DNA of 62,009 nucleotides. Source: Candidatus Acidiferrales bacterium. Its GTDB lineage: Bacteria > Bacteroidota > Ignavibacteria > Kryptoniales > JAKASW01. Positions 2,583 through 20,185 of this stretch are shown here, in pieces. Every line of letters starts with the position of its first letter. The stretch's first letter is position 1. A program made the translations under genes and the position numbers. The notes under the pieces are model-generated. The model was not told where the DNA came from, searched no databases, and was given only the letters and a program-made list of their open reading frames with translations. The stretch spans positions 1 to 62,009 of the forward strand of contig DATJAY010000034.1 in assembly GCA_035515795.1 (NCBI GenBank), written 5' to 3'.

Positions 2583-5453
2583 ATGGCGCAGAGTGAAATA
2601 AGAGAAACCTTGTCGGAAAATGAAATCGTACTAGAAGGGGTGCGCACGCATAACCTAAAGAACCTTGTGGTGCGAATCCCCAAAGGAAAAATTACTGTCG
2701 TGACAGGGCCGTCAGGGAGCGGTAAATCAAGTTTGGCATTTGATACCATTTACGCTGAAGGGCAAAGAAGATATATCGAAAGCCTTTCGGCTTACGTGAG
2801 ACAGTTTCTCGAGCGAATGGAAAGACCCGATGTCGACAGCATACGCGGGATTTCCCCGACGGTCGCCATCGAACAAAGACGCTTAAGCAGAAATCCTCGC
2901 TCTACAATAGCCACCATGACTGAGATCTATGATTATCTGCGTCTGCTTTACGGAAGGGCCGGAACAGTAGTCTGTCTCAATTGCAGAATTCCTGTTATTA
3001 AGTTCACCCCTCAGTCGATCTTGAATTTCATAAATAATCGCCTGAAAAATAGGAGGTTATATATTTTTTTTGATTTCAAAAATAATGATTACAGGAGAAA
3101 CGTTCAGGAGCTGAAGAGGCGCGGCTTCTACAGATTTGCTGAACTAGAAAAACCAGGCGAAGTTATCGACGCGAACACGGCTTCGTTCGCGCCTCTTGGT
3201 GATTTTCTTGTCCTCGCGGATAGAGTTGTTGCCCATGATAGCGACGAAAGGATCACGGAAGCGTGTGAACAGGGATTCTTAAATGGTGCGGGAAGCATTT
3301 ACGTCTACGATGTCGATGCACGGGAGGTTCATAAGTTCTCCAGCAGGCTCGAGTGCTCAAACTGCGGCAGATCATACCTTGAACCGGAGCCTCGATTGTT
3401 TTCCTTTAATAATCCCTATGGGGCATGTCCGGAATGTCAGGGTTTTGGCACCGTCATAGGTTACGACTGGAACAAGGCTGTGGCAAACCCTTTCTTGAGT
3501 GTCCTTGAGGGAGGCATAAGTTTGGTGTCGGCACCTGCCTTTGATATCTACAGACGGTCGCTTTTGAAAGCAGCAAGCAAAGGGAAGATTAGACTGGACA
3601 TTCCTATTAACAAACTCACTGAAGATGAATTTAACTTTTTGATCAAGGGAGACAAAGAATTCATCGGTTTATACGGCTTCGTGAAAAACCTGGAGAAGAA
3701 ATCTCGTTCGTTCTCGGTCAGATACTTTCTCGATAAATATCGTGGATACGTGGTTTGCCATTCGTGCAATGGCGGACGGCTTCGACCGGAGGCAGCTGCC
3801 GTTCAAATCGACGGGAAAAATCTTCCCGGAGTTGTCGCAATGACAGTGGATCGTGCACGTAAGTTTTTTGAATTGGTTCAACTCGAAGGGGAGCATGCCG
3901 TGATTGCCGCGCAAGTGCTTGACGAGATTCGAAAGAGGATTGGTTATTTATATGAAATCGGTCTGGGATATTTGACGCTCGACAGGTTATCGTCCACTTT
4001 ATCGGGCGGCGAAGCGCAGCGCGTAAATTTATCGACGAGTCTTGCATCCACTTTGGTGGCAACGACATATATTCTCGACGAACCGAGCATAGGCTTGCAC
4101 CCCCGCGATATGGATCGGCTGGTTTCCATTTTGAAGAATCTCAGGTCTTATCAAAATACCGTGATTGTTGTGGAACATGATGCCGAGATGATGAGAAACG
4201 CGGACCATGTCATCGATCTTGGACCGGGCTCGGGGGCGCTTGGAGGGGAGATTATGTACGAAGGGCCTTTTGCCGGGCTTCTCAAATCCAAAACCTCGAT
4301 AACCGGAAAATACCTGCGCGGCGAAAAGGAAATTCCTTTGCCAAAGAGAAGAAAACCTGTCGACAAGTTCATTCATGTTCGTGGTGCAAACCTTCATAAT
4401 CTCGTTAATGTTGATGTCGATATTCCGCTGTATTCCTTTGTTTGTATAACCGGCGTCAGCGGATCTGGGAAGAGCACACTCGTTTACGACATCCTTTATG
4501 ATGCGCTGAAGGAAGAATTCTCAACAGACCACTTTCGCAATTCTTCCGAAAACGTCAAGCTATCTTCTAATAGTGCTAAGGAGATTGTGTTCGATTATTT
4601 CCCTCAGTCCGTCGAGCTTGTCGATCAGAGTGCGGTCGGGAGAATATCGAGATCGAATGTGGCAACTTATAGCGGTGCGTTCGATCCGGTTCGCGAAATT
4701 TTTGCGAGGACGCCGCTAGCGAGGGAAAGAGGATTAAATGCGAGCTACTTTTCTTTCAATGTTGATTGGGGCGGAAGGTGCGAGGCCTGCAACGGCGAAG
4801 GCGTGCAGGTGGTTGAGATGCAGTTCCTCGCGGACGTTTCCCTCGAATGCGAAGTATGCCGGGGCAAAAGGTATGGTTCGGAAGCATTGGAAATAAAATA
4901 TAAAGGGAAGAGTATTGCCGACATTCTTGATCTCACCGTGGCTGAGGCTAAAGAATTCTTTTCTGAGTCGACCTCTCCGGGAAAAGATAACAAGGATGTC
5001 CTCAAACGTCTAACGCTGCTTGACCGCGTCGGATTAAGCTATCTGAAATTAGGTCAGAGATTGTCAACGTTATCCGGCGGGGAGGCACAGCGTCTGAAGA
5101 TTTCAAGTTATCTTTCTCCCTACGCTGTGAACAAAGACTCCTTGGGGAAATACATAGCCGGGAGCAGCGGGAGTGAGGTGCTCTTTATCCTCGATGAACC
5201 GACAACTGGATTGCACTTCGAGGAGATTGCAAAGCTGCTCGAAGTCTTGTTTGATCTGCGCAATCATGGGAACAGTATCATCGTTGTCGAACACAACTTA
5301 GATGTCATCAAGTGTGCCGATTACGTTATCGACTTAGGACCGGAAGCAGGCGAAGCTGGAGGAAAAGTAGTTGCTGCAGGAACACCTGAAGAAATAATTG
5401 GGGTCAAAGAATCAAGGACGGGACCTGTGTTAAGAAAGGTGATAGGAAAATGA
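2583..5453 (+). CDS. uvrA: Excinuclease ABC subunit A
   Basis: 956 residues, full length for UvrA, the damage-recognition ATPase of nucleotide excision repair that loads UvrB. Two ABC-type ATPase halves are visible: Walker A GPSGSGKS (Lys48) and GVSGSGKS (Lys630), and two LSGGEAQR signatures, each followed by a Walker B ending in DEP. Zinc-module cysteines occur in CSNCGRS with CPECQG, and in CEACNGEG with CEVCRG. The ATG at 2583 gives the usual short N-terminus before the first DNA-independent ATPase strand (LEGVRTHNLKNL). It is divergent from the two-component pair; tmk follows after about 150 bases. All residues needed for activity appear intact. Confidence 0.98.
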   Translation: MAQSEIRETLSENEIVLEGVRTHNLKNLVVRIPKGKITVVTGPSGSGKSSLAFDTIYAEGQRRYIESLSAYVRQFLERMERPDVDSIRGISPTVAIEQRRLSRNPRSTIATMTEIYDYLRLLYGRAGTVVCLNCRIPVIKFTPQSILNFINNRLKNRRLYIFFDFKNNDYRRNVQELKRRGFYRFAELEKPGEVIDANTASFAPLGDFLVLADRVVAHDSDERITEACEQGFLNGAGSIYVYDVDAREVHKFSSRLECSNCGRSYLEPEPRLFSFNNPYGACPECQGFGTVIGYDWNKAVANPFLSVLEGGISLVSAPAFDIYRRSLLKAASKGKIRLDIPINKLTEDEFNFLIKGDKEFIGLYGFVKNLEKKSRSFSVRYFLDKYRGYVVCHSCNGGRLRPEAAAVQIDGKNLPGVVAMTVDRARKFFELVQLEGEHAVIAAQVLDEIRKRIGYLYEIGLGYLTLDRLSSTLSGGEAQRVNLSTSLASTLVATTYILDEPSIGLHPRDMDRLVSILKNLRSYQNTVIVVEHDAEMMRNADHVIDLGPGSGALGGEIMYEGPFAGLLKSKTSITGKYLRGEKEIPLPKRRKPVDKFIHVRGANLHNLVNVDVDIPLYSFVCITGVSGSGKSTLVYDILYDALKEEFSTDHFRNSSENVKLSSNSAKEIVFDYFPQSVELVDQSAVGRISRSNVATYSGAFDPVREIFARTPLARERGLNASYFSFNVDWGGRCEACNGEGVQVVEMQFLADVSLECEVCRGKRYGSEALEIKYKGKSIADILDLTVAEAKEFFSESTSPGKDNKDVLKRLTLLDRVGLSYLKLGQRLSTLSGGEAQRLKISSYLSPYAVNKDSLGKYIAGSSGSEVLFILDEPTTGLHFEEIAKLLEVLFDLRNHGNSIIVVEHNLDVIKCADYVIDLGPEAGEAGGKVVAAGTPEEIIGVKESRTGPVLRKVIGK

Positions 5454-5570
5454 CGGTAGATGTGTTGGCCGTCTTTGCGGTCATAACAGGTGCTGGTCGT
5501 TCTTGTTATGGTCCGGAAGTTTACTCAACGAAATCCCCTCATTTCCTCGCGAAAGCATTTCAAGTTACGA

Positions 5571-5599
5571 TTGGAAAAACATCCCGCTGAAGTTATTTT
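5571..5599 (+). promoter_or_regulatory. Candidate tmk promoter
   Basis: TTGGAA (5571-5576), 17-base spacer, TATTTT (5594-5599). The -10 ends five bases before the tmk ATG, the same geometry as at the histidine kinase, and no Shine-Dalgarno sequence sits between them. tmk could also be read from uvrA. Confidence 0.35.
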
Positions 5600-5604
5600 A
5601 TAGG

Positions 5605-6240
5605 ATGCTGATTGCATTTGAAGGGATCGACGGCAGCGGCAAGACGACACAGGCAGAACTTCTTTCGAAACGGCTTAATGGCGAAGGAATATCGAACGTA
5701 ATTTTGCGCGAGCCCGGCGGGACTCCTCTTGGCGAAGGAGTTCGAGAATTACTCCTGCACCGGTCAGACTTAAAGGTAAGCCCGATTGCCGAGTTTCTGC
5801 TCTTCAGTGCAAGCAGGTCCCAGCTGACGCATGAAAAAATATTGCCGGCGCTTAGAGGCGGAAAGGCAGTGATCATAGATCGGTACTTTTATTCTTCGAT
5901 CGCCTATCAAGGGTTCGGCAGAGGAATTCCGGTGTCTGAAATAAAGACCGTGAACCACTTTGCGACGCAAAACGTTATCCCAGATGTGGTTTTCCTTTTC
6001 ACGCTGGACTTGAAAACTGCCTTCGAACGCATGGCTTCATCCGGCAGAGCTGCGGACAGAATGGAAAAAGGAGAAAGCGAGTTTTTTCACAGGGTCATTG
6101 ACGGATTTGCTTATTGCGCAAAGGAAGAACCGGATAAGTTTGTCACCGTCGACGGAAGAGAATCGATTGACAATCTTTCTGAAAAGATATTTCAAAATGT
6201 AATGAACAGAATTAAAAGGGTTAAAACAAATGCGCCGTAA
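5605..6240 (+). CDS. tmk: Thymidylate kinase
   Basis: 211 residues. Phosphorylates dTMP to dTDP for DNA synthesis. The P-loop GIDGSGKTTQ (Lys13) sits at the very N-terminus, followed by the substrate motif DRYFYSSIAYQG and a LID region containing RAADRM. The reading frame is open upstream to about 5503, but that extension is not tmk-like, so the ATG at 5605 directly before MLIAFEGID is chosen. The gene overlaps the following protease gene by 11 bases, which suggests translational coupling. Confidence 0.96.
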   Translation: MLIAFEGIDGSGKTTQAELLSKRLNGEGISNVILREPGGTPLGEGVRELLLHRSDLKVSPIAEFLLFSASRSQLTHEKILPALRGGKAVIIDRYFYSSIAYQGFGRGIPVSEIKTVNHFATQNVIPDVVFLFTLDLKTAFERMASSGRAADRMEKGESEFFHRVIDGFAYCAKEEPDKFVTVDGRESIDNLSEKIFQNVMNRIKRVKTNAP

Positions 6241-7879
6241 AGTTTTCTTTGTTACGCTAGTTTTGTTTCTTGGAACAAGCATAGGGTTTGTTGCTGTCAA
6301 GAACAGTGATACCTTCTACGAGGTCAAACAGAGTATCGATCTGTTCGGAAATGTGTATAAGGACGTCATCGAAAATTACGTCGACCCTGTTTCGCCGGGT
6401 CAGTTCATGCGGAAAGGAATCGACGCGATGCTCTCGTCGCTTGATCCCTATACTGTTTACATGGATAAGCAAAACAGCGGCGAGATTGATTTGCTCACGA
6501 CAGGCAAATACGGCGGGATCGGGGTGACGATCGGAACCGCCAACGGCAAAGTGATAATAACCGGCGTCTTTGATGGCTACAGCGCACAGAGACAGGGATT
6601 AAGGATCGGCGACCAGATACTCATGATAGATACGTCCGATGTGAACAAAATCAAAATCGATGAAGTCAGCGACATGGTACGAGGGGAACCCGGTTCCCAG
6701 CTCAAGCTGAGAATAAAAAGGGAAGGTGAGGAGAAGCCTTTTGATGTGGTTCTCGTGAGATCGGAAATCAGGTTGAAATCTGTGTCGTACTACGGTGTAG
6801 TCGATTCCAATATCGGATTCATAAAGCTGGATCAATTTTCACGGGGATCCGATGAAGAAGTAAAAAATGCTTTGACGGATTTGATGGCACGGGCTAGCCT
6901 TAAGGGTTTGATTCTGGATTTGAGAAACAACCCGGGAGGACTGTTGGAATCTGCAGTAAATATCGTCGAGCTTTTTGTCCCTAAAGGAAGTTTGATCGTA
7001 ATGACCAAGGGGAGGGATCCTTCTTCCGACAAGAAATATACGTCAGATCAGGATCCGATAGCTCCGGATATTCCGATGGTAGTCTTGGTGAACGGAAACA
7101 GTGCGAGTGCCAGCGAAATAGTAACCGGGGCTCTGCAGGATTTGGACAGGGCGGTAATTATCGGGACGAATACATTCGGAAAGGGATTGGTACAGACAAT
7201 TCTTCCGCTGGGATACGATGCGCAGCTAAAGATGACGACCGCAAGATATTATACGCCGAGCGGCAGATGCATTCAAAAAATAGATTACGAACGGCGCCGC
7301 GACGGGGAAGATGCCGTCACCCCGGACAGCCTTAGGAAAGAATTTAAAACGCTGGATGGTCGTCCGGTGTACGAATTAGGCGGGATTTCTCCCGACAGCA
7401 CGGTGACCGGACTGGAGAATTCCGACTACGTTCAACAGCTCATGCGCGGCGGTTACTTTTTTAACTTCGCGACACAATTTCGCGCGGAGCATGATTCGAT
7501 TTCACAGGATTTCACCGCCCGGCCCGAAGTGTTGAACAGTTTCAAACGCTTTATCGAGAAGAATAAATTCACGTATGCCTCCTCTCTTGATCAGGCTGTG
7601 GGGGATGCGCGCAAATTGGCGTCTACTTCCAACTACGATGAGTCGATATACAAGGACTTGTCTTCAATTGCAGATAGAGTAAAGAGCGATGAAGAGGGAT
7701 TATTCAACAAGAGTTCCAAGGAGATTTCAGAATATTTGACCGCCGAAATTATCGGCAGATTCAGGGGGGACGCGGCGCAAACTGAAGCTGCTCTTCATTA
7801 CGACCATCAGACTAGAGTTGCCGAGTCGATCATAGAAAATACTTCAACTTACAGAAGAATTCTTTCCCTGGATTATTGA
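6230..7879 (+). CDS. C-terminal processing peptidase (S41, CtpA/Prc type)
   Basis: 549 residues. An N-terminal hydrophobic segment (residues 4-22) acts as signal or anchor, so it works in the periplasm. A PDZ domain at about 95-175 (GGIGVTIG to IGDQILMID) is followed by the S41 protease core. The catalytic serine lies in NGNSASASE (residues 288-296) and the general-base Lys318 in TFGKG, the Ser/Lys dyad of the family. The C-terminal 150 residues are helical and outside the core, as in tail-specific proteases. Such enzymes trim C-termini of envelope proteins. It overlaps tmk by 11 bases. The substrate is unknown. Confidence 0.94.
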   Translation: MRRKVFFVTLVLFLGTSIGFVAVKNSDTFYEVKQSIDLFGNVYKDVIENYVDPVSPGQFMRKGIDAMLSSLDPYTVYMDKQNSGEIDLLTTGKYGGIGVTIGTANGKVIITGVFDGYSAQRQGLRIGDQILMIDTSDVNKIKIDEVSDMVRGEPGSQLKLRIKREGEEKPFDVVLVRSEIRLKSVSYYGVVDSNIGFIKLDQFSRGSDEEVKNALTDLMARASLKGLILDLRNNPGGLLESAVNIVELFVPKGSLIVMTKGRDPSSDKKYTSDQDPIAPDIPMVVLVNGNSASASEIVTGALQDLDRAVIIGTNTFGKGLVQTILPLGYDAQLKMTTARYYTPSGRCIQKIDYERRRDGEDAVTPDSLRKEFKTLDGRPVYELGGISPDSTVTGLENSDYVQQLMRGGYFFNFATQFRAEHDSISQDFTARPEVLNSFKRFIEKNKFTYASSLDQAVGDARKLASTSNYDESIYKDLSSIADRVKSDEEGLFNKSSKEISEYLTAEIIGRFRGDAAQTEAALHYDHQTRVAESIIENTSTYRRILSLDY

Positions 7880-7904
7880 TTATACGTTTGAATTCCGCTA
7901 AATT
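7876..7904 (+). promoter_or_regulatory. Candidate gltA promoter
   Basis: TTGATT (7876-7881) overlaps the stop codon of the protease gene; then a 17-base spacer and TAAATT (7899-7904). The expected start leaves a leader of about 25 bases with a good ribosome site (AGGAAGGA) before the gltA ATG. Identical hexamers and spacing precede hrcA and the TPP riboswitch. Confidence 0.55.
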
Positions 7905-7936
7905 TTTTTCACAACAGAGGAAGGAATCTCACCATA

Positions 7937-9088
7937 ATGTCTGAAACCATCAGCGCAACCAAACCGTCGGCTGCATTCTCAAAAGGTCTGGATGGAATCG
8001 TGGCCGGCCAATCCAAGATTTGCTTCATCGATGGACTGAAGGGCGAACTTGTTTATAGCGGGATAAACATAGACGAGCTTGCGACGAACGCAACTTTCGA
8101 AGAGGTAGTTTACCTTTTATGGTACGGTCGGCTTCCCAGAAAGGATGAACTAAGTAAACTCCAAAAGGAACTTGCGGCGAACAGGAGCCTGCCGAGCCAG
8201 GTCATTGAGTTCTTGAGAGGTGTCCCGAAAACTGCCGATCCGATGGATGTGCTTCGAACGGCGGTTTCGTATTTGGGTATTTTTGACGAAGAGGCAAAGG
8301 ATAATTCACCCGAGGCTAACCTGCGAAAGTCGATCAGGCTTGTTGCGAAGATGCCCACCATTGTGGCTAACTTCCACACGTTTCGGAAAACAGGTGACTA
8401 TTCGAAGCCGGATGGTTCGCTTGGGCATTCCGCGAATTTTCTTTATATGTTGAACGGTGTACCACCCGGCGACACCTCGACAAAAACTATGGATTGCGCC
8501 CTGGTCCTTCAAGCCGATCACGAGTTTAATGCCTCTACGTTTTCCGCAAGAGTGACGGTGGCTACTCTGTCCGATATTTATTCTGGTGTTACTTCTGCAA
8601 TCGGAACTCTAAAAGGACCTCTCCATGGCGGCGCAAACGAAGAAGTCATGAAGATGCTTCTTGAAATCAAGACAATGGACAACGTAGAAAAATATTTGCA
8701 GAGTCTGCTGGCGGGCAAAAAGAAAGTGCCGGGTTTTGGGCACCGGGTTTACAGGGTCGAAGATCCCCGTGCAAAACATTTGAAGAAATTTTCAAAGCAG
8801 CTGGCCGAGACGATTGATAATCTAAAATGGTTCGAAATGTCGGAGAAGATCGAAGCAATAATGAAAAAGGAGAAGAGTTTGGTGCCGAACGTGGATTTCT
8901 ATTCAGCATCAACCTATTATTATCTCGGTATCCCTATCGATCTTTACACTCCCATCTTTGCGATAAGCCGAGTCTCAGGTTGGACTGCTCATATTATGGA
9001 ACAATATTCGGATAATCGCCTTATAAGGCCGTTGTCAGACTATGTTGGAAAACGTGATCAACACTTTGTGCCGATCAGCCAGAGATGA
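7937..9088 (+). CDS. gltA: Citrate synthase
   Basis: 383 residues. Condenses acetyl-CoA and oxaloacetate to citrate, the first TCA step. The catalytic triad reads as His230 (PLHGGANEE), His269 (GFGHRVY) and Asp320 (NVDFYSA). The length fits the short, dimeric Gram-positive/archaeal-type citrate synthases rather than the hexameric E. coli type; 2-methylcitrate synthase is a related alternative. Its place next to isocitrate dehydrogenase, with aconitase nearby, supports the TCA assignment. Well-formed ribosome site upstream. Confidence 0.95.
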   Translation: MSETISATKPSAAFSKGLDGIVAGQSKICFIDGLKGELVYSGINIDELATNATFEEVVYLLWYGRLPRKDELSKLQKELAANRSLPSQVIEFLRGVPKTADPMDVLRTAVSYLGIFDEEAKDNSPEANLRKSIRLVAKMPTIVANFHTFRKTGDYSKPDGSLGHSANFLYMLNGVPPGDTSTKTMDCALVLQADHEFNASTFSARVTVATLSDIYSGVTSAIGTLKGPLHGGANEEVMKMLLEIKTMDNVEKYLQSLLAGKKKVPGFGHRVYRVEDPRAKHLKKFSKQLAETIDNLKWFEMSEKIEAIMKKEKSLVPNVDFYSASTYYYLGIPIDLYTPIFAISRVSGWTAHIMEQYSDNRLIRPLSDYVGKRDQHFVPISQR

Positions 9089-9304
9089 ACGGTTTCTGAA
9101 CTTGGCTTGACATAGGAATGAAGACACAACTTCCTCGTACAGAATTCAAAGTTGGTGCTCGTTTTCCCGAGGGTGTTTTTCGAGATACAGATTAAGTCCA
9201 ATTAGGATTGGCGCTTGCTGGAAATCCTCTATGGGAGTACACGGGACGTTCGGGATAATTCGTGACATTTTTAGTTGCGGCTGAGCCGCGTTGGGAGGAT
9301 AAAC

Positions 9305-10636
9305 ATGACTTCTTATGAAAAACTTTCGCTGCCGCAAAGAGGCGAAAAAATTGTCTACGCGAGCGGCAGGCTGCAAGTGCCGGATAATCCAATCATTCCT
9401 TTTATTGAAGGGGATGGTACAGGTCCGGATATATGGCGGGCAAGTAAGATAGTATTTGATGAAGCAGTGAAGAGAGCTTACGGTGGGAAAAAAGAAATCG
9501 AATGGTTGGAAATCTTCGCCGGCGAAAAGGCAAACAGGATTTATGGCAGGCAGGTTTGGTTGCCGGAAGACACACTCAGGGCAGTCAACGAATACATTGT
9601 CGCGATAAAAGGCCCACTTACTACGCCGGTCGGAGGTGGAATTCGTTCTTTGAATGTTGCACTCCGTCAAGTGCTCGATCTTTATGTCTGCTTGCGGCCT
9701 GTTAGATACTTCGCCGGTGTACCATCACCGGTAAAGCATCCTGAAAAAGTTGATGTGGTGATCTTCCGCGAAAACACTGAGGATATCTACGCGGGCATAG
9801 AATATGCGGCGGGAACGTACGAAGCACAAAAAGTCTTGGATCTTCTTCAGAGAGAATTTCCGAAGGATTTCGAAAAAATCCGGTTCAACACGAAAGAAAA
9901 GGCTGATCAATTCTGGCGAACCGTCGGCGCGAACGATTTTCCCAGCGATGTAAGAGTCGGCATCGGCATTAAGCCGGTAAGTTACAGCGGGAGCGTGCGA
10001 CTGATTCACAGCGCGATTTCCTACGCGATCAGGAACAAGCGCGAATCAGTCACCATGGTGCATAAGGGGAACATCATGAAATTCACCGAAGGTGCATTTC
10101 GGGATTGGGGATATAAAGCGGCAAAAGAATATTTCGGTGCTGTCGAGATCGACGGCGGCCCATCATGTAAGATTCCTGAAGGAAAACCGGGTGCAGGGAT
10201 CATCATTAAGGACAGTATTGCCGACATCACTCTGCAGCAGGTTCTTACGAGGCCAGAGGATTTTGACGTCGTAGCCACCTTGAATTTGAATGGAGATTAT
10301 CTGAGTGACGCTCTCGCGGCACAGGTCGGCGGAATCGGCATCGCGCCGGGAGCAAACATAAACTACATAACAGGATACGCGATCTTTGAGGCGACCCATG
10401 GCACGGCACCCAAGTATGCAAACCTGAACAAGGTGAACCCGGGCTCCATGATATTGAGTGGTGTAATGATGCTCGAGTATCTGGGATGGAACGATGCTGC
10501 GAATTTGATAGTGAAGGGGATGGAGAAAGCGATACAATCGAAAGTGGTCACTTATGATTTCGCTCGACTGATGGATGGCGCGAAGGAAACTGGCACACTC
10601 GAGTTCGGAGAAGCGATAGTGCAAAATATGAGATAG
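9305..10636 (+). CDS. icd: Isocitrate dehydrogenase, probably NADP-dependent
   Basis: 443 residues. Oxidative decarboxylation of isocitrate to 2-oxoglutarate. The substrate-binding region [10 protein letters not shown], the signature [12 protein letters not shown] and the cofactor loop HGTAPKYA are present. The Lys-Tyr pair and the following Val (PKYANLNKV) match the E. coli NADP-preferring pattern, not the Asp-Ile pattern of NAD enzymes, so NADP use is inferred. The frame stays open to a TTG at 9275, but the ATG at 9305 has a strong GGGAGG site six bases upstream. The 216-base gap after gltA holds a small inverted repeat (9198-9211) and no clear promoter. Confidence 0.96.
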
Positions 10637-17239: not shown

Positions 17240-19453
17240 ATGACGTTGACTGACTCTAATACACATGATGGTACAGCAGAAAACGGACAAGTCCCTGGGG
17301 ACAAACCTGCTGCTATAATTGACCATACGGCAAATGTAAAAGCCGCGCTTTCATCAAAGTACGAGATAGTTGAAAATCTCGGTAAGGGAGAAATGTGCAC
17401 GGTCTACCGGGCGGTCGATCTTGCGCAGAACAAGGAAGTTGCTCTCGAAATACTCCCGCCTCACCTGGACGAGAATCCAGAATATGTCGACCGCTTTCAC
17501 AGTGAAGCATGGGCTGCTGCCGATCTAAGCCACCCTAACATTAGCAGGATATTCGACATAGGGTTCGAAGAGGGGATTAATTATGTGGCTGTTGAATACT
17601 TAGAGGGGACAGATCTCCATACATTAATTCTATGGAAGGGAAGACTTGAAACAGAAGAAGCAGTTAAGATCATAGCGCCGGTCACGGCTGCCTTGGCATA
17701 TGCTCATGATAAGGGAGTAATTCACAGAGATATCAGAAGCTCTAATATTATTGTGACGGACGCGGGGAGACCGGTTTTGACCGACTTCTGGATCGATCAT
17801 GCTTTCAGAGGAACACGGGTGACCAAAGCCGAAAGAGTAATAGGGACGCTCGAGTACTTGAGTCCCGAGCAGGCGGAAGGCAAGGAGCTGGACCGAAGCA
17901 GCAATATTTATTGTCTGGGCATCGTCTTATACGAAGCGCTGACGGGTCGAGTCCCGTTCAGCGGCGGCAATCCTTTCACAACAGTCAGCAAGATAATTAA
18001 CAGCCCGCCCATTCCGCCCAGGCAAATCACCTCGTCGATACCGGAGTGGATGGAGGAAATCGTCCTCAAGTGTCTCCAAAAAGATCCGAAGGACAGATTT
18101 TCGACTGCTGGAGAGTTAACGGATGCGTTATTTAGGATCAGGCGTCGTAAGACCGCCGTCGGCCCATGGTCGCATTCCCGCGGTCGCAGTATTTCTTCGC
18201 ACCCCCATTTGACTCACAAGAGAGTGCAGGAGCCGTCCTTAAAGAAATCCTACGTCTCGGAATCCCATCCTGAGGCACCAACAAAGCGACGGAAGGAAGC
18301 TAAAGTTCCGCCGCCGGAAAAACAAATTGAAAAACTGGATAAAGTTAGAAGTATACGGTTACATAAGCACATTCCAACAAAAACAATTCTCAAGACCGCT
18401 GCACCGTTTCTTATTATTGCCGCAGCAATTTTTATCGTAATAAATTACTCCGGTACCTGGCTCGGGGGAATTAAGACAGAACACGCAAGTTCAGGTACAA
18501 CGCAATCGACGGAGATCGGACAGGCGCACGCATCCAGCTCTCTCCCGCCGCAAGACCATCGATATGATGGTACAACGAGTAAAGAGATCGAGTCGGGCAG
18601 CCGAAAGGCCGAGACCCGGCAAGAACCACCCCCGAGCATTATCGTTAATCCTTCGAATAAATCGGCGGAGGTTGTAACGAATACGCCGAAGACTATCGCT
18701 ACTGAAAATGTGGAGCCATCCATTAGGCCGTCAACACCTGATAGGGTCGATCGTGAGAGACAGGTTGTCCATATTCCGTGGATTTTGGTTGATGGTGGTG
18801 CATTTCAGATGGGCAGCAACAATTATTCTTATACAAAACCGATGCACGCAGTTAATCTGCACAATTTCTATATGAGTGCAACTGAGATAACTTTTGACGA
18901 GTATGATAAATTTTGTGAGGCAACTCATGCCAAGAAGCCGAGTGACAATGGCTGGGGAAGAGGAAAGATGCCGGTAATAAATGTGAGCTGGAACGACGCG
19001 GTTGCTTTTTGTCGCTGGCTGTCGGACCAGATGGGGAAAACTGTACGTCTTCCAACAGAGGCAGAGTATGAATATGCGGCACGTGGCGGGAGCAAGAGCA
19101 GGGGATTTCAATATAGTGGAACAAATGACATTGACCTCGTCGCTTGGTACTCGGGAAACTCGGGCGGAAAACCGCATGAAGTAGGCACGCTGGGCCCTAA
19201 CGAAATTGGGCTATATGATATGAGTGGAAACGTTTGGGAATGGTGCGAAGATTGGTACCACCAGTCGTATGATAAGGCCCCGGCCAACGGAGGAGCTTGG
19301 GCAATCCAAGACCGTTACAATCCTTACAGGGTACTTCGAGGCGGCTCGGCAAATGGTGCAAACTATTGCAGCCAAGTCTCGTTTCGCTTTTATCTTTTCC
19401 CGTACAGCAAGGATAACACCATAGGATTTCGCTGCGTCCAGGAGGCGAAATGA
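17240..19453 (+). CDS. Degenerate Ser/Thr kinase fused to FGE/SUMF1-like domain, single-pass membrane protein
   Basis: 737 residues. A kinase-fold domain at about 40-300 resembles bacterial Hanks-type kinases (YEIVENLGKGEMCTVYRA, HRDIRSSN, APE-region SPEQ). The ATP-anchoring VAIK lysine is Glu70 (VALEIL), the metal-binding DFG is DFW (Asp182-Trp184), and the HRD Asp164 and Asn169 remain. The usual Asp of DIYSLG is Asn222. A basic linker, a membrane helix (about 385-407), a low-complexity region and an FGE-sulfatase domain (about 510-737: DGGAFQMGS, RLPTEAEYEYAARGG, SGNVWEWCEDWY, RGGS, GFRC) follow. The topology would put the kinase fold in the cytoplasm and the FGE-like domain outside. It is probably a pseudokinase signalling or scaffold protein; weak residual kinase activity is not excluded. 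ATG start with a poor ribosome site. Confidence 0.9.
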   Translation: MTLTDSNTHDGTAENGQVPGDKPAAIIDHTANVKAALSSKYEIVENLGKGEMCTVYRAVDLAQNKEVALEILPPHLDENPEYVDRFHSEAWAAADLSHPNISRIFDIGFEEGINYVAVEYLEGTDLHTLILWKGRLETEEAVKIIAPVTAALAYAHDKGVIHRDIRSSNIIVTDAGRPVLTDFWIDHAFRGTRVTKAERVIGTLEYLSPEQAEGKELDRSSNIYCLGIVLYEALTGRVPFSGGNPFTTVSKIINSPPIPPRQITSSIPEWMEEIVLKCLQKDPKDRFSTAGELTDALFRIRRRKTAVGPWSHSRGRSISSHPHLTHKRVQEPSLKKSYVSESHPEAPTKRRKEAKVPPPEKQIEKLDKVRSIRLHKHIPTKTILKTAAPFLIIAAAIFIVINYSGTWLGGIKTEHASSGTTQSTEIGQAHASSSLPPQDHRYDGTTSKEIESGSRKAETRQEPPPSIIVNPSNKSAEVVTNTPKTIATENVEPSIRPSTPDRVDRERQVVHIPWILVDGGAFQMGSNNYSYTKPMHAVNLHNFYMSATEITFDEYDKFCEATHAKKPSDNGWGRGKMPVINVSWNDAVAFCRWLSDQMGKTVRLPTEAEYEYAARGGSKSRGFQYSGTNDIDLVAWYSGNSGGKPHEVGTLGPNEIGLYDMSGNVWEWCEDWYHQSYDKAPANGGAWAIQDRYNPYRVLRGGSANGANYCSQVSFRFYLFPYSKDNTIGFRCVQEAK

Positions 19454-19489: not shown

Positions 19490-20185
19490 CTAATACTGCG
19501 CTCCTATGTTGAGCGTTATGAAGAAGGAATTGAAGTTAGCCATGGGTTCATCCTGCAAGCTTTCGATTCCATGCGACATCGGAAGTATATAATATCGTAT
19601 ACTTACTCCTAAGAGGCTTCCCGGATCAAGTCCAAAGTACGCTCCTAGTCCAACGTAACCGCCTGCTCCGAAGTATCCCCTGCCATGTGAGATACTCCAT
19701 CCGAATGGTTGATCGTAAGGAGTTGCGAAAATAATATTCGGACCGACACCTCCGGAAATGTAGGGCCTGAAACTTCCTGTGAGGCTCTCTTTGAAAAGTC
19801 TGTACTGCAGGCCGGCCATAGCAGGAAAAACTAGCAGTGTATTGATTTTCCCGGGAACGATTTTTACCAGGTTACCGTATATGTCATATCCCTCAAGCTC
19901 TACCTCGTTTGGTGCTTTTGCTTCGGAGCCGCTGAGCGTGAACGTCCAAGAAAGGGTGCCGTTGATCGCCTGGTTGTAGAAGAAGCCCATGCCGAATCCG
20001 TTATTGCCTAGCATGATGTCGAGTCCCAGAGCATTTGTCTTTTCAGCAGTGTCGGGTGCGACGTCCTTTATCGGCATGAAGGCATATTCGGAATCAGGGT
20101 TTGCAGAGGTTTTAGTCACCTGCGCGAAAGAGATTCCTACTGTAAGAACAAAAAATCCGATCATGCATTTAAACATGTTCTTCAC
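19490..20185 (-). CDS. Predicted outer-membrane beta-barrel protein
   Basis: 231 residues. A signal peptide (residues 1-21, ending SFAQ) is followed by alternating aromatic/glycine strands typical of small outer-membrane barrels (GYVGLGAYFGLDP, SIRYYILPM), ending in an aromatic residue (GAQY). No specific family recognised. Function unknown: surface or structural porin-like. It is convergent with the pseudokinase gene across a 36-base gap. Confidence 0.8.
   Translation of the reverse strand: MKNMFKCMIGFFVLTVGISFAQVTKTSANPDSEYAFMPIKDVAPDTAEKTNALGLDIMLGNNGFGMGFFYNQAINGTLSWTFTLSGSEAKAPNEVELEGYDIYGNLVKIVPGKINTLLVFPAMAGLQYRLFKESLTGSFRPYISGGVGPNIIFATPYDQPFGWSISHGRGYFGAGGYVGLGAYFGLDPGSLLGVSIRYYILPMSHGIESLQDEPMANFNSFFITLNIGAQY

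Follow-up and report, generated by a model that had tools for sequence, protein, structure and literature searches.

A degenerate PknB-like kinase joined through a predicted membrane helix to an FGE-fold domain

Gene and domain layout

The gene at positions 17240-19453 (+) of the window, the 62,009-nucleotide stretch of DNA analysed here, is an uninterrupted open frame of 737 codons encoding a 737-aa fusion of a degenerate kinase domain, a membrane helix and a domain resembling the formylglycine-generating enzyme (FGE). A hemerythrin gene and an aconitase gene lie 5' of it, the next genes on its 3' side are on the opposite strand, and none of its neighbours in the window is a gene for a kinase, phosphatase or FGE partner. 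Convergent with it, at 19490-20185 (-), is a gene whose 231-residue product begins with a sequence like an export signal and matches no Pfam family. A full-length match to the fusion was found in its own genome only, and no orthologue was detected in the 12 other genomes of the genus or in the class sample.

The fusion comprises a Hanks-type (PknB/StkP-like) kinase domain at residues 41-290 (17360-18109 (+); Pfam PF00069 (Pkinase), E = 4.7e-43), a single transmembrane helix at residues 383-401 (18386-18442 (+)) and an FGE-fold, C-type-lectin-like ectodomain at residues 514-733 (18779-19438 (+); PF03781 (FGE-sulfatase), E = 2.9e-52). The helix, with a hydropathy of 2.48 over 19 residues, is the sole region above 1.6. 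Its N side carries a Lys/Arg-rich stretch (KVRSIRLHKHIPTK), so that under the positive-inside rule the kinase is predicted to be cytoplasmic and the FGE domain to lie outside; the signal-peptide-like starts of the FGE proteins at four related loci (L027, L028, L053 and L056) likewise place this domain outside. The single helix and its charged flank support the layout of kinase inside, one helix and FGE domain outside that was proposed in a first-pass annotation of this DNA.

Loss of catalytic residues in the kinase half

AlphaFold2 modelled the kinase domain from 33 aligned sequences as a PknB-like fold (pLDDT 91.4, pTM 0.89), with pLDDT below 50 only in the activation segment (residues 188-200), and the best Foldseek match of the model was PknB 5u94 (E = 6e-26). 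For comparison we used 33 canonical kinases of this genus and its class, together with PknB and StkP. The window kinase keeps 30 of the 36 columns that are conserved in ≥90% of the canonical kinases, and five of the six lost columns belong to the catalytic site and are invariant in all 33. At these positions Glu70 replaces the VAxK ATP-binding lysine (K70E, codon GAA; 17447-17449 (+)), Arg166 the catalytic-loop lysine (K166R, HRDIR; 17735-17737 (+)), Trp184 the DFG glycine (G184W, giving DFW, codon TGG; 17789-17791 (+)), Asp186 the Ala two residues past DFG (A186D; 17795-17797 (+)) and Asn222 the alphaF Asp of DxxSxG (D222N, codon AAT; 17903-17905 (+)). The third glycine of the glycine loop is Cys53. 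The lysine, the DFG motif and the alphaF Asp are present in every one of the 33 canonical kinases.

Because most conserved columns are kept, five of the six lost ones fall in the catalytic site and no canonical kinase lacks the lysine, DFG or alphaF Asp, the losses are not a matter of chance; as read from the alignment, the kinase half is a case of selective loss within an otherwise well-kept domain. The alphaC Glu89, HRD Asp164, Asn169 and DFG Asp182 are retained, so residual nucleotide binding is possible. The first-pass annotation had called Glu70, DFW, Asn222 and the retained HRD Asp164 and Asn169 exactly; the three losses that it counted all stand, and K166R and A186D, at positions equally invariant in the 33 canonical kinases, had escaped it.

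The FGE-fold ectodomain

Structure prediction, which had been proposed for both halves, also gave a confident model of the FGE-fold domain (pLDDT 96.4), as it had of the kinase. Foldseek neighbours of this domain include PvdO, Treponema TvpA and true FGE, with E = 2e-20 against FGE of S. coelicolor. The catalytic cysteines, singled out earlier for checking, are not in place: alignment with the S. coelicolor enzyme shows Gly where the first copper cysteine would be, and the second lies one residue out of register. The copper-cysteine pair is present in 0 of the 48 sequences of the FGE-fold alignment, and no type I sulfatase (PF00884) is encoded in the genome, which is 100% complete. Since the cysteine pair and PF00884 are both absent, the ectodomain is classified from its sequence as an FGE fold that is not a formylglycine-generating enzyme; the earlier label of 'FGE-like domain' thus holds for the fold and fails if an enzyme was meant. 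FGE domains have been classed under the C-type-lectin fold as one of its subtypes, with a proposed role in sensing (PMC10907252).

A conserved gene set and a probable second pseudokinase lineage

Kinase and FGE genes are neighbours in several related lineages. Loci L053 and L056 (family f26) and L160 (f10) encode, in order, an FHA-type protein, a PP2C phosphatase, a zinc-ribbon kinase-TM-PASTA protein and an exported TolB-like/FGE protein, and L161 (f13) encodes a PP2C, another gene, a kinase with two PASTA-like repeats, a TolB-like protein and an FGE protein. These labels were assigned by Pfam in L053, and FHA, PP2C and PASTA by resemblance of the translations in L056, L160 and L161; 'TolB-like' is a descriptive label for an N-domain with no Pfam match. 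The operon kinases are intact in all three families (f10, f13 and f26), and the VAxK lysine, HRD and DFG are kept in 10/10 clade or near-clade kinases outside the genus. At L056 (5242-8184), an intact kinase-PASTA gene and an FGE gene share one frame, with a single stop and little further sequence between them, an arrangement that represents a possible route to fusion.

The window's own genome also encodes a pseudokinase-PASTA protein with a zinc ribbon (L027, G000:C26; 8499-10334 (-)) together with an exported TolB-like/FGE protein (7297-8502 (-)), and a second species of the genus carries the same pair (L028). In both, a 4-base GTGA overlap joins the two genes and kdp-like genes lie nearby. 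The two kinases have lost the glycine loop, the alphaC Glu, the HRD Arg and the DFG Asp and have kept the lysine and the alphaF Asp. PASTA was found in the kinases of L027, L028 and L053, and the window protein has no Pfam match to it.

In the kinase tree, the operon kinases group with the window kinase and both paired pseudokinases in a single clade (100/99). The closest relatives of the FGE half are the FGE proteins encoded in the L027 and L028 pairs (52-54% identity; 85/83 support). By sequence comparison both halves of the window protein are traced to the conserved gene set, the FGE half with moderate support, and the spread of intact kinases suggests that the change ran from active to dead. 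Within the kinase clade the window protein branches separately from the pseudokinases of L027 and L028, and a tree forcing the three together, computed with the catalytic columns removed, was rejected at a modest p-AU of 0.039. A single origin for all three was rejected on this test and on the different residues lost, which together are moderate evidence. The kinase most likely degenerated twice in the genus, in two lineages with different losses, a view that follows mainly from the different residue sets and to which the tree test lends moderate support.

Alternative readings

The first-pass annotation had interpreted the kinase half as a pseudokinase, and the restriction of its losses to the catalytic site, in a fold that is otherwise well kept, bears this out, as does the degeneration, through different losses, of the related kinase that neighbours an FGE gene in this genome and in a second species. 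It had also reasoned that relatives with intact VAIK and DFG residues would indicate an active or recently damaged kinase; such relatives do exist, as operon kinases in other families, but the pattern is one of selective loss rather than general decay. A recently damaged kinase, in a gene losing its function and heading to a pseudogene, is unlikely, even though the fusion lacks an orthologue in the other genus genomes and, judging from the codons, one base change would suffice for each of K70E, K166R, G184W and D222N. Against decay, the frame is fully open, fold residues are kept, both domains model confidently, the losses are concentrated in the catalytic site and a related pseudokinase and FGE pair is maintained in two species. 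Quite improbable, too, is a kinase that is still active or has altered chemistry and in which, as in WNK or POMK, another residue takes the place of the lysine; POMK uses a glycine-loop lysine (PMC12599244). The retained HRD Asp, Asn169, DFG Asp and alphaC Glu would suit such a kinase, as would Lys49 in the glycine loop, a weaker candidate than a WNK-type lysine. However, ordinary kinases often have Lys at the x of GxG, which counts against Lys49 as a replacement, and a WNK-type compensating lysine is ruled out by Cys53, which occupies the site of the replacement lysine in WNK kinases. Glu70 would moreover set an acid beside Glu89 and Asp182, and Trp184 and Asn222 are further losses.

Two other readings concern the ectodomain. 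That it is a working formylglycine-generating enzyme under control of the kinase half has practically no probability left: the strong PF03781 match and the FGE structures among the Foldseek matches favour it, but it is already contradicted by the absent first cysteine, the shifted second, the lack of the pair in every aligned relative and the lack of a PF00884 sulfatase in the complete genome. Diversification of the FGE domain as a variable receptor by a diversity-generating retroelement is very improbable, although TvpA, a known target of such an element, is among the nearest solved folds and the C-terminal loop is divergent; no reverse transcriptase was found in the genome and no template repeat in the window or genome, so this reading is already contradicted in this genome.

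A proposed non-catalytic receptor

We consider that the window gene probably encodes a single-pass membrane protein that derives from the gene set described above, its PknB-like kinase being catalytically dead and on the cytoplasmic side and its FGE-fold domain non-enzymatic and on the periplasmic side, and that the protein is most likely a non-catalytic transmembrane receptor or scaffold. Under this proposal, the kinase of a set consisting of PP2C, kinase-PASTA and exported TolB-like/FGE protein, with FHA in several lineages, would have lost phosphotransfer, the zinc ribbon and PASTA domain of the ancestral kinase would have disappeared, and the FGE domain would have become an ectodomain by fusion. 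In the periplasm the FGE domain may bind a ligand or partner and thereby alter the dead kinase domain in its conformation or pairing; the kinase domain could serve as a scaffold, decoy or allosteric partner. More tentatively, in two lineages of the genus the phosphatase-kinase-FGE set may have abandoned phosphotransfer and become a non-catalytic receptor system, with the dead kinase itself relaying a signal from the FGE ectodomain.

Bacterial pseudokinases have received little experimental study (PMC12599244). The protein proposed here suggests that a kinase can become a non-enzymatic signalling part, and it offers the FGE-fold domain as a receptor part instead of an enzyme. Within one gene set, the kinases left intact in other families can be compared directly with the two versions that degenerated differently in this genus, which makes it testable what a kinase domain does after phosphorylation stops.

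Relation to known systems

The window protein has its kinase fold and its layout of cytoplasmic kinase, one helix and ectodomain in common with PknB of M. tuberculosis and StkP of S. pneumoniae (34-36% identity between the kinase domain and PknB). It differs from both in lacking the ATP lysine, the DFG Gly and the alphaF Asp, and an FGE-fold domain replaces their PASTA repeats. Chlamydial kinases carry an FGE-family domain (PMC1262709), and among them Pkn1, a kinase-FGE (NirV/DUF323) fusion, has a Hanks kinase followed by an FGE-family domain, as in the window protein. Whereas Pkn1 is described as cytoplasmic and autophosphorylates (PMC5177608), the kinase of the window protein is degenerate and is followed by a membrane helix. 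The paired genes of L027 and L028 similarly tie a degenerate kinase of the same clade to an FGE protein, but through separate, overlapping genes and not a fused one.

Among bacterial pseudokinases, the ActPs2, ActPs3, GLW, DYD and EssB/YukC families resemble the window protein in their degenerate fold and, often, a C-terminal membrane helix, but differ in their motif losses and their hosts, which are mostly actinobacteria and firmicutes (PMC12599244). In DYD pseudokinases the ATP lysine is Arg and the alphaC Glu is absent (PMC12599244); the window kinase, with Glu70 in place of the lysine and alphaC Glu89 present, was not assigned to this family. FGE domains go unmentioned in a 2025 review of bacterial pseudokinase families (PMC12599244), and we found no description of a pseudokinase-FGE fusion in the open-access literature. 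A profile search of genome contigs with the FGE alignment recovered at least seven other kinase-FGE fusions, all with the lysine, catalytic Asp and DFG kept; the matches listed fell on generic FGE motifs, and no operon relative was among them. Kinase-FGE fusions are already known in bacteria, as the first-pass annotation had stated; the window protein, with the degenerate kinase half that it had supposed to be less described, is a variant of the known fusions.

Other kinase genes were observed at two loci. At L058 (G000:C30), a canonical-looking kinase at 6271-7272 (-) lies between open reading frames at 4922-6274 and 7597-9036, the starts of which, read by eye, resemble glutamine synthetase, and an open reading frame at 9207-10121 is PP2C-like on the same reading. 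At L060 (G000:C3), 4844-5671 (-) encodes a 275-residue kinase-like protein whose PF00069 match runs from model position 44 onward, suggesting a short or divergent N-lobe.
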